NCBI GenBank assembly: GCA_021802645.1
Contig: JAJZRO010000005.1
Span: forward strand, 1 to 39,020
Source: Deltaproteobacteria bacterium
GTDB lineage: Bacteria; Desulfobacterota; Desulfobulbia; Desulfobulbales; Desulfurivibrionaceae
DNA: 39,020 bases
Direction: 5' to 3'
Under the pieces are notes generated by a model. It saw only the letters and a program-made list of their open reading frames with translations. It was not told the origin of the DNA and did no database searches. Every line of letters starts with the position of its first letter. Position 1 is the first letter of the stretch. Position numbers and translations under genes: made by a program. Below, one piece after another: positions 5,764 to 16,414 of this stretch.

Positions 5764-6186
5764 ATGAAGAAGTATGTATTGTTGTGCCTTTCTCTGCTCT
5801 GCCTGTTCAACGTGGCAGCGTTCTTTGAGACTTTCAACTGGGTGGAGCCCGAGCAATTCAAACAATGGCTGGAGGCGAAGAAGCCCATGATCCTGGTGGA
5901 TATCCAGGACAAACCTTCCTTTGCGGCCCACCATTTCCCCGGCGCCATCGAGACCAACGCCTTCCCGGTGGAGACGGACGCGGAGCGGCATCGGCTCGAC
6001 CCGGCGGTGGCGACCGCGAAGAAGAGCGGTCAGGAGGTGGTGGTGCTCTGCCCGCGGGGTGGTGGCGGGGCGAAACGGGCCTACGATTACCTCAAGGCCC
6101 AGGGCGTGCCGGAAAAGAAGCTCGTCATCCTTACCGGCGGGGTGGACAAGTGGCCCTACCGCAACATGCTGGAGGCGAGCAAGTAG
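5764..6186 (+). CDS. Exported rhodanese-like protein
   Basis: A 140-residue protein with a signal peptide or N-terminal anchor (MKKYVLLCLSLLCLFNVAAFF) followed by one rhodanese domain. I-L-V-D-I-Q-D and H-F-P-G-A-I are the usual first-half motifs. The active loop is V-V-V-L-C-P-R-G-G-G-G-A-K-R-A, with the cysteine near residue 96 in a glycine-rich loop that is longer and smoother than the usual CxxGxR. It should transfer sulfane sulfur, or sense it, outside the cytoplasm; the acceptor is unknown. An AAGGAG lies 8 nt upstream of the ATG. Confidence 0.85.
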   Translation: MKKYVLLCLSLLCLFNVAAFFETFNWVEPEQFKQWLEAKKPMILVDIQDKPSFAAHHFPGAIETNAFPVETDAERHRLDPAVATAKKSGQEVVVLCPRGGGGAKRAYDYLKAQGVPEKKLVILTGGVDKWPYRNMLEASK

Positions 6187-6422: not shown

Positions 6423-6710
6423 ATGCCACAGCCGATTTGTGAATGCCAGACGACGCCGAAGGAAGATGAGCGTACCACCGTCACCCTGGAGATGCCGGTG
6501 GGGCTGCTCAAGCAACTGGAGGAGGCGGCAGCGCTCCAAGGCACCGACTATCGGGAGATGGCACTCTGCTTTCTTCGCGATGGGGTGGGCAACAGCAGCT
6601 TCAAGGTGAAGCGGGAACAATTCGTCAAACACGTTAGGGAGATCTTGGAGAAACACGGCGTCAAGCCCACCGAGGTTGAGGAAGAGGTCTTCAACAAGAT
6701 TCTCTATTGA
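6423..6710 (+). CDS. Small ribbon-helix-helix-like protein
   Basis: A 95-residue protein. Residues about 17-55 have the ribbon-helix-helix layout: a short strand R-T-T-V-T-L-E-M, then an amphipathic helix V-G-L-L-K-Q-L-E-E-A-A-A-L, a turn G-T-D-Y and a second helix. This suggests a CopG/Arc-type DNA-binding or antitoxin-like protein. The C-terminal 40 residues are charged and helical. ATG 6423 is preceded by AAAGGAGG with 7-nt spacing. It lies 223 nt upstream of the selenoprotein gene on the same strand, and no toxin gene is adjacent. The assignment rests on the pattern only. Confidence 0.6.
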   Translation: MPQPICECQTTPKEDERTTVTLEMPVGLLKQLEEAAALQGTDYREMALCFLRDGVGNSSFKVKREQFVKHVREILEKHGVKPTEVEEEVFNKILY

Positions 6711-6933
6711 CGAAACCCGGGTGCCGTTACGTGCCAGAACGTCCTGCGGGTGGCCGTTTTCGCACGCAGCATCAACCCGACGGGAGAAGATGACGGCCAA
6801 GGCGGCCGCCGGTCGTGGCGGCTTGTGCCCGAGGTCGAGGGTTTTTGGCGCGGGTTCCGGCTGTCGCTCCAGGGCGCTCCCCTGCGGCCGGCCATGAGGG
6901 GGCGGGAAATACAAAACGGAAAAGGAGACGCCC

Positions 6934-7200
6934 ATGATCGAGATGGTGCTGTTCCACAGTGGCAATCCTGCGTGAGGAACCTGCCAGAAGGCCACGGGCG
7001 TGGCCAAGGCGATGCAGGAGCAATTCGGCGGGCAGCTCACGCTGCGTACCTACCTCTCCAACTCCCCGGAGGCGGCAGCCTACAGCCTCAAGGGTTCGAC
7101 CAATGTCTTTGTCAACGGCGAGTGGGTTGCCCTGGAGGTGGCCACCGACCGGGAAAAAATGGCAGCCCATCTGAACGGCATCCTCGCCCGCGGCGGATGA
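6934..7200 (+). CDS. Thioredoxin-like selenoprotein (UGA-encoded Sec at codon 14, UxxC)
   Basis: ATG 6934 has AAAAGGAG 7 nt upstream. The frame reads MIEMVLFHSGNPA, then TGA (6973-6975), then GTCQKATGVAKAMQEQ and on to a TGA stop at 7198-7200. Read as Sec, the TGA gives an 88-residue protein with a redox motif U14-G-T-C17 at the end of the first beta strand, exactly where thioredoxin-fold proteins carry CxxC. A later S-T-N-V-F-V-N-G-E-W segment resembles the strand-turn-strand of small thioredoxins. A SECIS-like stem-loop follows the UGA. A standard gene caller would start at GTG 7000 and lose the active site. The partner and substrate are unknown. The gene ends back to back with the minus-strand gene at 7201. 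A pseudogene is the alternative, but downstream coding is intact. Confidence 0.8.
6980..7018 (+). promoter_or_regulatory. Bacterial SECIS-like element
   Basis: Downstream of the UGA a two-part stem forms: lower CCTGC (6980-6984) with GCAGG (7014-7018), upper GGCCAC (6990-6995) with GTGGCC (7000-7005), apical loop GGGC. The loop G lies 21 nt after the UGA, inside the range known for bacterial SECIS elements, where an apical-loop guanine is needed for SelB binding. Confidence 0.7.
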
Positions 7201-8802
7201 TCAGGGTGTCGCCGGGAGCGCCCGCCGGCAGGCGATGGCGAAATCCTCCGGATAGTGGCCGTTGATCCAGCGGAGTTGCGCCTCGGAAAAAGCCCCCATG
7301 GAGTAGGGCAGCTTGGGCAGCAGGCTGTAGAGGAGCCGCTGATCGGTATCCGGATTGTCGATCCGTTTCGAATATTCGATGCTGGTGACCAGCCGGGCGC
7401 CGAGTTTGGCCAACGCCTGCTGGGCTAACAGTAATGCCCGGTCCAGACTGGCGCGGCAGGCGGTGTCCGCCTCAAGGATGTTGCCTACCGCCCCCTTGGT
7501 CATGATCTGCACCTCCCACTGGGACACCTGCGCCTTGGGCACGAAGAGGAGCACCTGGTCGTCCTCGTGGATGACGAGGCTTGCCGCATCCGTACGGCCG
7601 TCCATGCGCTGGTTGGCGCGGATGGCGTTCAAATAGCTGGCAAAGAACCCTTGGCCGGTTTCGGCGCGGAAACGGGCACCGTGGTCGGCGATCTGGTCGC
7701 CGTTCGAGAAGGCAGGGAGCGATGCGGCTGGGTCATTGCCGCTGTGATAGCCCGTTACTGTCGGCGGCACCAGGGCGTACTGCTGGTGGATCTGCTGGTG
7801 CGAGGCGTGGAGCCGGTAGCCGCTGCCGGCAAAGTCGAAGCCGAAGTTCCAGCCCCAGAGGATGCCGGTGTAGGGCAGGGTGCCGGGGGCGATCCGGCCG
7901 AGGGTCGCCACGATCTGCTGCCGTAACCCCTCCAGTTCTGCCACCGTGAGCCCGCGGCGGCTCGCGTTCATGCTGATCCCCACCATCTCGGCGAGCCGCA
8001 CATAGGTGCGCTGGTAGTAGAGGTGCCTGAGCCCGGTCATGTCGGCCAGGGTGAGGTCGCCGATTCGGTAGCGCACCGCGTCGTCCGCCATGTTGGCCGC
8101 ATAATGGCCGCCGGCAATGTACGAGTTGCGACGGAGATACTCGAAGACGTGAGTCGCCTCGCCGGGGCCGCCGTACTCGCCGACGATCTCGCTCCCCCCC
8201 TGGGCGCCCGGCCTGAGCACCATCACCCTTTTGTAGGCATCCGGCAAAGCGGGGTTGTTGACCACGGTTTCGAAGAGGTCGTGGTCCATAATCACCGGCC
8301 GGGGGCCGTGTGTGCCGTGCTCATACCGCAGGCCATTTGGCTGGCCCTTGCCATCGTGGGTCAAGGCGCAGCTCAGTTCGGCGAGCAAGGCGCATTCCTG
8401 CGGATCGGTGGAGGTGGCGGCCAGGGTGATGCGCAGCGGTTGGGGCAGGCGGCGCAGAAAGGCCTGGTGCTCCTCGCCGGCCAGATCACCGAGTGAGACC
8501 GGCGCCGGGGCGGGCAGTCGGATGGCGGCCGGGTCGGCGGCCTTGGCCTCGGCCCACGACCTGCTGATGTAGGTGGTGCCGCGGAAGGCAAAGGGATTGG
8601 CGATCTCGTAGACCCAATCCGCCGCCGGCACGGCAACGTCGCCCGGCGGGAAATTGCGACCATTGTCGAGCACGGTGCCATCGGGCAGGGAACCCAGGGG
8701 GGCGAGATGGTCCTGCGGTCGCAGGTTGCGGACCGTATAGGATGGCTGGTGGAGGCCGAAGACAAAACGGCCATCGGCAGTGACACAGGTGCGAAGCGGC
8801 AT
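7201..8802 (-). CDS. Uncharacterised 533-residue protein, possibly distant GalT/HIT-like
   Basis: A soluble protein without signal peptide or membrane segments; I do not recognise the family with certainty. About residues 310-350 contain the cluster R-L-H-A-S-H-Q-Q-I-H-Q-Q, which resembles the H-P-H-x-Q nucleotidyl-transfer motif of galactose-1-phosphate uridylyltransferases. The earlier G-D-L-T-L-A-D-M-T-G-L-R-H-L segment is also GalT-like in layout. An N-terminal N-P-F-A-F-R-G-T-T-Y-I-S segment and the D-H-D-L-F-E-T-V-V-N-N-P motif are further landmarks. The start lies 2 nt after the thiD stop with GGAGGA upstream, so the two are cotranscribed and probably coupled. A nucleotidyl-transfer or sugar-phosphate role is only a hypothesis. 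Confidence 0.6.
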   Translation of the reverse strand: MPLRTCVTADGRFVFGLHQPSYTVRNLRPQDHLAPLGSLPDGTVLDNGRNFPPGDVAVPAADWVYEIANPFAFRGTTYISRSWAEAKAADPAAIRLPAPAPVSLGDLAGEEHQAFLRRLPQPLRITLAATSTDPQECALLAELSCALTHDGKGQPNGLRYEHGTHGPRPVIMDHDLFETVVNNPALPDAYKRVMVLRPGAQGGSEIVGEYGGPGEATHVFEYLRRNSYIAGGHYAANMADDAVRYRIGDLTLADMTGLRHLYYQRTYVRLAEMVGISMNASRRGLTVAELEGLRQQIVATLGRIAPGTLPYTGILWGWNFGFDFAGSGYRLHASHQQIHQQYALVPPTVTGYHSGNDPAASLPAFSNGDQIADHGARFRAETGQGFFASYLNAIRANQRMDGRTDAASLVIHEDDQVLLFVPKAQVSQWEVQIMTKGAVGNILEADTACRASLDRALLLAQQALAKLGARLVTSIEYSKRIDNPDTDQRLLYSLLPKLPYSMGAFSEAQLRWINGHYPEDFAIACRRALPATP

Positions 8803-13553: not shown

Positions 13554-13588
13554 CCGCACCGGCGATCAGGCTGAGACGGGGAACGGAC

Positions 13589-14170
13589 GTGCGGTGCAGT
13601 GAGGTGGAGTTCGTCGATAGTGTCTTTTCCCTGAAGCGGTTGCCAGAGGCGGACCTGCCCGAGGTCGCCTTTGCCGGCCGTTCCAACGTCGGCAAATCGA
13701 GCCTGATGAACCGGCTCTTGAACCGCAAGGCGCTGGTCAAGGTGAGCGCCAAGCCGGGCAAGACCCAGAGCCTTAATTTCTTCCGGGTGGACAAGCGCTG
13801 CTACTTCGTCGACCTGCCGGGCTACGGCTTCGCCAAGGTGGACAAGAAGGTGCAGGATGCCTGGCAGGCGCTTATTTCCGGCTACCTCGAAGCGCGGGCG
13901 ACCCTGCGCTGCGTGGTGGTCATCGTCGATCTCCGCCATGAGCCCAAGGAGCTCGATCGCATGCTCATCGATTGGCTGCGGGCCAAGGGCATCTTTCACT
14001 TGCTGGTCTATACCAAGATGGACAAGCTTTCCCGCAACGAACAGGCCAAACAGGCCCGCTTGCTGGATGCGGGGTTCGGGGTGGCGGCCGGCGACCGCCT
14101 GCTTTTTTCCGCCAAGACCGGCGAGGGGCGGGAGGCGTTGCTCGAAAGACTTGACGACCTGCTGATGTAG
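13589..14170 (+). CDS. engB: Ribosome-biogenesis GTPase EngB/YsxC
   Basis: A 193-residue TRAFAC GTPase needed for 50S subunit assembly. G1 is G-R-S-N-V-G-K-S-S (residues 30-38), G2 includes P-G-K-T-Q, G3 is D-L-P-G-Y-G, G4 is T-K-M-D-K and G5 is S-A-K. The length matches the family. The start at GTG 13589 is the only suitable codon after the hisG stop; the ribosome site (GGGGA) is weak. It follows hisG by 35 nt and is probably cotranscribed. Confidence 0.95.
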   Translation: MRCSEVEFVDSVFSLKRLPEADLPEVAFAGRSNVGKSSLMNRLLNRKALVKVSAKPGKTQSLNFFRVDKRCYFVDLPGYGFAKVDKKVQDAWQALISGYLEARATLRCVVVIVDLRHEPKELDRMLIDWLRAKGIFHLLVYTKMDKLSRNEQAKQARLLDAGFGVAAGDRLLFSAKTGEGREALLERLDDLLM

Positions 14171-14217
14171 TGTTCTATTAACTGCTTAAGCGATACGGGT
14201 GTCGATAACCGGGGGGA

Positions 14218-14227
14218 TTGTCGACAA
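14218..14227. promoter_or_regulatory. Palindrome upstream of the two-CW gene
   Basis: TTGTCGACAA is a perfect 10-bp palindrome 33 nt before the two-CW start. It could be an operator; nothing else supports this. Confidence 0.15.
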
Positions 14228-14260
14228 ATCTCTACGGCATGGAATGGGGAGGTGACGGCG

Positions 14261-14554
14261 ATGGGCAGCGTGCGGGAATGGCCTTGTTGGGAAATCACCA
14301 AATGCGTCAGCGAGGATTGCTGCCTGTCCCGGGGACAGGAACTCCACGCCAAGCCGTGCTGGGAGATTGCCAGCGAACTCGATGACTACCGCAGCGCCCT
14401 CAATGTCTGCAAGGACTGCATCGTCTATGTCTCCAAGCAGGGTTCCTCCACCCTGAGCGAGGCGGAGCTGGAGGCGATCGTCAGCGCGAAAAGAGTGGAG
14501 TGCGTGCTGGTGCAGAAATGCCCCAACTACAAGCGGGAGAAGAAGATCGCCTGA
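14261..14554 (+). CDS. Two-CW domain cysteine-rich protein
   Basis: A 97-residue cytoplasmic protein with ten cysteines in the two-CW layout: C-W-E-I-T-K-C near the N-terminus, then a C-C pair, K-P-C-W-E-I-A, and C-K-D-C-I-V-Y-V. These probably bind a metal or an iron-sulfur cluster. Proteins of this kind are common in sulfate- and metal-reducing deltaproteobacteria and have no known function. I chose ATG 14261 because GGGGAGG lies 8 nt upstream; an in-frame GTG at 14252 overlaps that site. It lies 90 nt after engB and converges on lepA. Confidence 0.75.
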   Translation: MGSVREWPCWEITKCVSEDCCLSRGQELHAKPCWEIASELDDYRSALNVCKDCIVYVSKQGSSTLSEAELEAIVSAKRVECVLVQKCPNYKREKKIA

Positions 14555-14608
14555 GCGCAATCCCGCTCGTCTTTCGTGATGCCGCCAACGTCCGGTGACG
14601 GAGACGGC

Positions 14609-16414
14609 TTATCCCTGTTCTGATTTGAGGACCGCGAGGAAGGCGCTCTGCGGGATCTCGACGTTGCCCACCGTCTTCATCCGTTTCTTGCCCGCCTTCT
14701 GCTTTTCCAAGAGTTTCCGTTTCCGGCTGATATCGCCGCCATAGCATTTGGCCAGCACGTCTTTTCTGAGCGCCGAGATATTGGTGCGCGCTACGATACT
14801 GCCGCCGATGGCCGCCTGGATGGCGATCTTGAACATCTGGCGCGGGATTTCTTCCTTCAGCCGTTCGCAGGCGGCGAGCCCCCGAGCCCGGGCGCCGGAA
14901 CGGTGCACCAGCTGGGAGAGGGCGTCCACCTTGTCGCCGTTCACCAGGATATCGAGCTTGACCAGGTCGCTTTCGCGGTAATCGAGCATCTCGTAATCAA
15001 AGGAGCCGTAGCCCTGGGTGATCGACTTCAACCGGTCGTAGAAGTCGTAGATCACCTCGGCCAGGGGGAGCTCGCAGGTGAACTCCAGGCGACCCGGCAG
15101 GGGATAGTGATAGCTGGTGTTGACGCCTCTACGCTCCATGCACAGGGTCATCACCCCGCCCATGTAGCGTTCCGGCATGTGGATGGTCGCCTTGATGAAC
15201 GGTTCCTCGATGCGGGCGATGCGGGCCGGGTCCGGGAAGTAGGCCGGGTTGTCCACCTCGATGTTGGTGCCGTCGTTTAGGGTGACGTGGTAGTTGACCG
15301 ATGGCACGGTGAGGATGAGCGAGAGGTCGAACTCGCGCTCCAGCCGTTCCTGCACCACCTCGAGATGAAGCAGGCCGAGGAAGCCGCAGCGGAAGCCGAA
15401 GCCCAGCGCGGTGGAGCTGTCCTTCTGGAAGGTGAGCGCCGCGTCGTTCAAGGTGAGCTTCTCTATCGCCGCGGCCAGGGCTTCGTAGTCGTCGGTGGAG
15501 ACCGGATAGATCGAGGAGAAGACCACCTGTTTCGCCTCCTTGAAGCCGGGCAGCGGCGTGGCGCAGGGGCGCTCCTTCAAGGTGATGGTATCGCCGGCGC
15601 GGGTGTCGCTGATGTTCTTGATGCCGGCGATGATGTAGCCGACCTGGCCGGCGGCGAGCTCTGGCTGCGGCTCGCGGTGCAGCCGGAAGAAGCCGACCTC
15701 CTCCACCCGGTAGGTGGCGTTGTTGGACAGGAAGAGGATGGTGTCGCCGGCCTTGACCCGGCCTTGAAAGACGCGGCAGGAGATGATGGTGCCGCGGAAG
15801 GAGTCGTACTGGGCGTCGAAGATCAGCGCCGAGAGCGGCGCCTCGGGGTCGCCCTTGGGCGGCGGCAGGTAGTTGACTACTGCCTCGAGGATGGCATCCA
15901 CCCCCAGGCCGGTCTTGGCCGAGCATTTCTGGATGTGCTCGGCCTCGAGGCCGAGATCGTCGGTGATCTGGGCGGCGATGGCCTCCGGGTCGGCCGCCGG
16001 CAGGTCGATCTTGTTGATCACCGGAATGATCTCCAGATCGTGTTCCATGGCGAGATAGAGGTTGGCCAGGGTCTGGGCCTCGACGCCTTGGGCGGCGTCC
16101 ACCAGCAGGAGCGCCCCTTCGCAGGAGGCCAAGGCGCGTGAGACCTCATAGCTGAAATCCACGTGGCCCGGGGTGTCGACCAGATTCAAGAGGTAGTGCT
16201 GGCCGTCCTTGGCGTGGTAAGGCAGACAGATGGTCTGGCTTTTGATGGTGATGCCGCGTTCCCGCTCGATCTCCATGTTGTCGAGTAGCTGGTCCTGGAA
16301 CTCGCGGTCGGTCACCATGCCGCAGAGCTGGATGAGGCGGTCGGCCAGGGTGGACTTGCCGTGGTCGATATGGGCGATGATGCTGAAGTTGCGAATGTTT
16401 TTTAACTGTACCAT
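14609..16414 (-). CDS. lepA: Elongation factor 4 (LepA)
   Basis: A 601-residue ribosome-dependent GTPase. G1 is A-H-I-D-H-G-K-S-T near residue 14, G3 is D-T-P-G-H-V-D-F, and G4 is N-K-I-D. R-E-R-G-I-T-I is the switch I signature. Domains II, III ([11 protein letters not shown]), V and the LepA-specific C-terminal domain ([17 protein letters not shown]) are all present. It acts on stalled or initiating ribosomes. The usual neighbour lepB is not adjacent. The ribosome site is weak. The gene is divergent from rpoH and convergent with the two-CW gene. Confidence 0.97.

Follow-up and report, generated by a model that had tools for sequence, protein, structure and literature searches.

The TGA at codon 14 of tsoX, an 88-codon frame on the forward strand (Table 1), almost certainly encodes selenocysteine (Sec), and sequence comparison places the product in the TsoX family. 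The fuller account, in which TsoX is a selenoprotein with a Sec14-Cys17 redox pair and has its Sec inserted under the guidance of a SECIS hairpin, is very probably right as a whole. Family membership, the conserved TGA, a covarying hairpin, a complete Sec machinery and the predicted fold argue for it, while we infer that the pair undergoes a redox cycle and that the protein is a small electron relay acting on a sulfur or metalloid substrate. A preliminary description of this DNA had already read the TGA as Sec, and the conserved TGA, the presence of selA, selB, selC and selD and the retention of the upstream frame support that reading; our attempts to refute it all failed.

Table 1. Features of the tsoX region, with positions numbered within the window (the whole 39,020-nt stretch of DNA that was analyzed)
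Feature	Position	Strand	Description	Evidence
Rhodanese-like protein	5764..6186	+	Two genes upstream of tsoX	PF00581, E 3.6e-11; link to tsoX by position only
95-aa conserved protein without known family	6423..6710	+	Upstream neighbor of tsoX	In five relatives just before the ArsR-tsoA cluster
Ribosome-binding site	6922..6927	+	AAGGAG	Sequence; 6 bases 5' of ATG 6934
tsoX	6934..7200	+	88 codons, predicted Sec at codon 14, stop TGA 7198-7200	NF045809, E 6.2e-36; 24 homologues aligned
Predicted Sec codon TGA	6973..6975	+	Residue U14 of U-G-T-C	24/25 aligned members have TGA, the other TTA; matched to Cys32 of E. coli thioredoxin in the profile alignment
Cys17 codon	6982..6984	+	Second residue of the UxxC pair	Column invariant in the family alignment
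Lower helix of the folded hairpin	6980..7018	+	6980-6984 with 7014-7018	Fold; 70% paired in relatives, three pairs often broken
Putative SECIS upper hairpin	6990..7005	+	6-bp stem 6990-6995/7000-7005, loop GGGC 6996-6999, 20 nt after the TGA	Pairing in 96% of cells across 23 sequences; two pairs show compensatory changes

The features of the gene that had been described from the letters, namely a ribosome site, a TGA at codon 14 of the frame from ATG 6934, 74 sense codons between this TGA and the stop, and a UxxC motif with its cysteine three residues past the TGA (U-G-T-C), are all present in the sequence. Most relatives likewise have a purine-rich, GGAG-like ribosome site at a comparable distance. 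The plain ORF list of the window holds a 66-residue ORF from GTG 7000 and nothing longer for this gene, which is exactly the fragment that automatic callers had been expected to report. A sigma-70 scan upstream of tsoX found no plus-strand promoter, a search of positions 6800-7300 against Rfam returned nothing meaningful, and a scan of the window for further TGA read-through genes (UxxC, CxxU, UxC and CU), judged by eye, gave no convincing second case.

Searched against NCBIfam, the product matched NF045809 (TsoX, "HSGNPxU motif (seleno)protein") at 122.5 bits, where the family cut-off is 52, over positions 1-80 of the 82 in the model, and it carries the HSGNPxU motif followed by xxC as HSGNPAUGTC. 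It thus shares with TsoX the motif, the UxxC pair, the length and a full-length profile match. A 2026 review (PMC13188914) includes TsoX, as a family with a UxxC motif, in its list of predicted selenoproteins of prokaryotes and cites Haft and Tolstoy 2025 (mSystems) for it. The selenoprotein had been called overlooked, a label that does not hold for a family already modeled by NCBI and named in that review: on sequence grounds the gene is a further, isolated member of a described family, not a newly discovered kind. A search of plasmid sequences found no match to it. What the gene adds is an isolated member of a selenoprotein family, together with leads on the role of TsoX in the form of a conserved TGA without a Cys alternative, a Thr at the cis-Pro position and a thioredoxin reductase fusion.

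Among 58 genomes (its own and 57 relatives), the gene was found in nine, each time with the TGA inside it. Across 395 genomes of the phylum, 20 scored above the family cut-off, and 19 of these contained the TGA. In the alignment of 25 members, which come from many families of the phylum, the TGA falls at the same codon in all except one, which has TTA (Leu), and no member has Cys there. The earlier expectation that homologues would show either Cys or an aligned TGA was therefore borne out for TGA but not for Cys, since the sole departure is the Leu codon. Over codons 1-13, comparison with seven relatives showed 4-6 codons differing synonymously and 0-2 non-synonymously; as these changes are mostly synonymous, the stretch upstream of the TGA is coding. 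Loss of the upstream frame in relatives, which would have told against Sec, was not seen, the frame being conserved in every relative examined. It is the homologues, not the hairpin, that raise the observation above chance.

The TTA-containing copy (L052:155-412, genome G343) retains the hairpin. Its Leu codon is not obviously due to loss of the pathway, because that genome still has selA; a sequencing error or the decay of this copy could explain it. In the same genus as ours, one genome (G001, approximately 90% complete) has selA and lacks tsoX.

Downstream of the TGA, the RNA can form the hairpin GGCCAC-GGGC-GTGGCC on a lower helix CCUGC/GCAGG, which together fold at -18.3 kcal/mol (z -2.24). 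The published bacterial SECIS model has a loop of 3-9 nt, a G in the first two loop positions, a spacing of 16-37 nt and an energy of at most -7.5 kcal/mol (PMC13188914). With its GGGC loop at 20 nt, the gene agrees with that model, though so do 81 of 300 random TGAs (27%) in this GC-rich window. Because so many arbitrary TGAs satisfy the same model, the hairpin in a single sequence is weak evidence by itself. The full upper stem also forms in 24% of synonymous recodings of tsoX, and we rejected the single-sequence hairpin as stand-alone evidence on both counts.

The comparison across species, on the other hand, provides the real evidence for a SECIS. The model fits 24 of the 25 alignment rows, with the loop lying exactly 20 nt past the codon in 23, and the pairing of the upper stem over the 23 distinct sequences exceeds that of all 500 shuffles, a comparison inflated by the kinship of the sequences, and of all slid versions, which retain that kinship. 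One covarying pair links the third bases of two codons, which in most members specify Ala and Val, and occurs as U-A, C-G and A-U. Of the two-part stem-loop proposed in the preliminary description, the upper hairpin is thus conserved and covarying, but many relatives have a disrupted lower stem, so that only the upper hairpin is supported.

The search for the Sec genes suggested earlier found all four, selA, selB, selC and selD, in the genome that carries this gene (99% complete). Its tRNA-Sec (selC) scored 72.7 bits and has the anticodon TCA. The selD gene (L032; G000 contig 4, 29820-30743) carries an in-frame TGA, and SelD of this genome is probably itself a selenoprotein.

We weighed two other readings of the TGA against Sec. 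Were it a true stop, with the locus a pseudogene or an ordinary short gene restarting at GTG 7000, the 66-residue fragment would be the whole product, and both the plain ORF list, which contains the fragment alone, and the unexceptional single-sequence hairpin would be accounted for. Such a fragment would, however, be missing both strand 1 and the active site of the AlphaFold2 model, and this reading sits poorly with the mostly synonymous variation of the first 13 codons, with a complete Sec machinery in the genome and with the fact that the TGA and the coding parts on both sides of it are kept in 23 other genomes; we consider it very improbable. The TGA might alternatively be decoded as some other residue, for example Trp, or be suppressed. 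Nothing specific speaks for this, and both tsoX and the preceding gene end at TGA, which argues that TGA is an ordinary stop here. The tRNA-Sec with its TCA anticodon, the covarying hairpin at a SECIS-like distance after this particular TGA and the correspondence of its position to the catalytic Cys of thioredoxin likewise point to Sec, and make decoding as another residue exceedingly improbable.

We modeled the product with AlphaFold2 from the 25-row alignment and obtained a predicted thioredoxin fold (mean pLDDT 94). The best solved structures in a Foldseek search were thioredoxins (1v98: Z 11.9, rmsd 1.7 over 83 residues), and the TsoX profile also picks up thioredoxins by sequence (E 5e-5), with U14 aligned to Cys32 and Cys17 to Cys35 of E. 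coli thioredoxin. The predicted fold and the profile alignment agree with the earlier suggestion of a thioredoxin-like protein with a UxxC active site. Compared with thioredoxin itself (Trx1; PF00085), the fold is alike in prediction and the active-site pair occupies the same two positions, but TsoX has Sec for Cys32, no WCGPC motif and approximately 16-20% identity, and a Pfam search of the product recognized no family, PF00085 included. Moreover, the position of cis-Pro76 is taken by Thr56, a Thr that is at least 90% conserved in the TsoX alignment. A thioredoxin without the cis-Pro is unusual, and TsoX, lacking it, may not work like an ordinary thioredoxin. Short archaeal thioredoxins of approximately 85 residues also give weak profile matches, namely the MJ0307 family (TIGR00411; E 0.034) and 1nho (E 1.1e-4); these have Cys instead of Sec, and 1nho keeps a Pro-like context that is absent from TsoX.

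TsoX is usually encoded in a tso selenoprotein cluster, although the family model does not demand it, whereas the gene described here stands apart from TsoA and TsoC. In 12 of the 19 other loci, TsoA (LULAxC), which has its own in-frame TGA, and an ArsR-type regulator lie upstream of tsoX; six loci have TsoC (NEPxGxxU) nearby, four have an SQR-like flavoprotein together with a NapH-like ferredoxin protein, and in three a DsrE-like protein follows tsoX. The window contains neither TsoA nor TsoC. TsoC was not found in the rest of the genome by a search that was positive in five other genomes, nor was TsoA, in a search without a positive control, and a weak tblastn search saw no remnant of TsoA, TsoC or an ArsR-type gene between 6710 and 6934. 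Since the gene at 6423-6710 is the outer gene of five tso loci, the window looks like a shortened tso locus that retains tsoX and this outer gene but lacks the part between them, whatever the order of events. The product of 6423-6710 has no significant match in Pfam or NCBIfam; by eye, its first half resembles ribbon-helix-helix proteins. In one relative (L059; G025 contig 76), selA (13580-14938, minus strand) adjoins the ArsR-tsoA-tsoC-tsoX cluster.

In a distant TsoX member (L054:1489-2709; G196, contig 195), a TsoX domain with the TGA stands in front of, and in frame with, a complete thioredoxin-disulfide reductase (TIGR01292, 384 bits) in a fusion of 407 codons, which comes from a single contig of a draft genome with 9% contamination. 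This fusion and the neighborhoods above may already be covered by Haft and Tolstoy 2025.

We propose that SelB and tRNA-Sec would insert Sec at TGA 6973 under the direction of the hairpin that lies 20 nt beyond it, to yield an 88-residue thioredoxin-fold redox protein that is probably cytoplasmic. The UxxC pair Sec14-Cys17 would cycle between the selenol/thiol and the selenenylsulfide, and TsoX would act as a small electron relay that is reduced by a thioredoxin-reductase-like flavoprotein and hands electrons to a sulfur or metalloid substrate. The L054 fusion and the UxxC geometry suggest reduction by such a flavoprotein and relay of the electrons onward, and we regard the relay role as reasonably likely. 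In relatives, the sulfur-related neighbors would point to reactive sulfur species, and the ArsR-type regulator would suggest stress from sulfur or metalloids. Any one particular substrate is unlikely to be the right choice, guessed as it would be from neighbors in relatives that this genome does not share. A protein that uses Sec mainly for binding a metal, a metalloid or an Fe-S cluster, or for sensing, would fit both the replacement of cis-Pro by Thr and the ArsR-type neighbor of tsoA in those 12 loci, but the reductase fusion and the UxxC geometry indicate electron transfer, and the family alignment has no conserved Cys beyond the U14-C17 pair, so that we find a binding or sensing role rather improbable. 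Within the electron relay account, TsoX could conceivably be a distinct Sec-dependent kind of thioredoxin, without cis-Pro or any Cys version seen, that serves a reactive-sulfur or metalloid pathway with its own thioredoxin-reductase-like partner and that persists here without the remaining tso cluster, a proposal that we hold tentatively.

Outside the window, the same genome has a weak match to the C-terminal part of TsoB (L080; G000 contig 5, 75459-75776); the open frame that holds it is 197 residues long with a single in-frame TGA and possibly encodes another thioredoxin-like selenoprotein.
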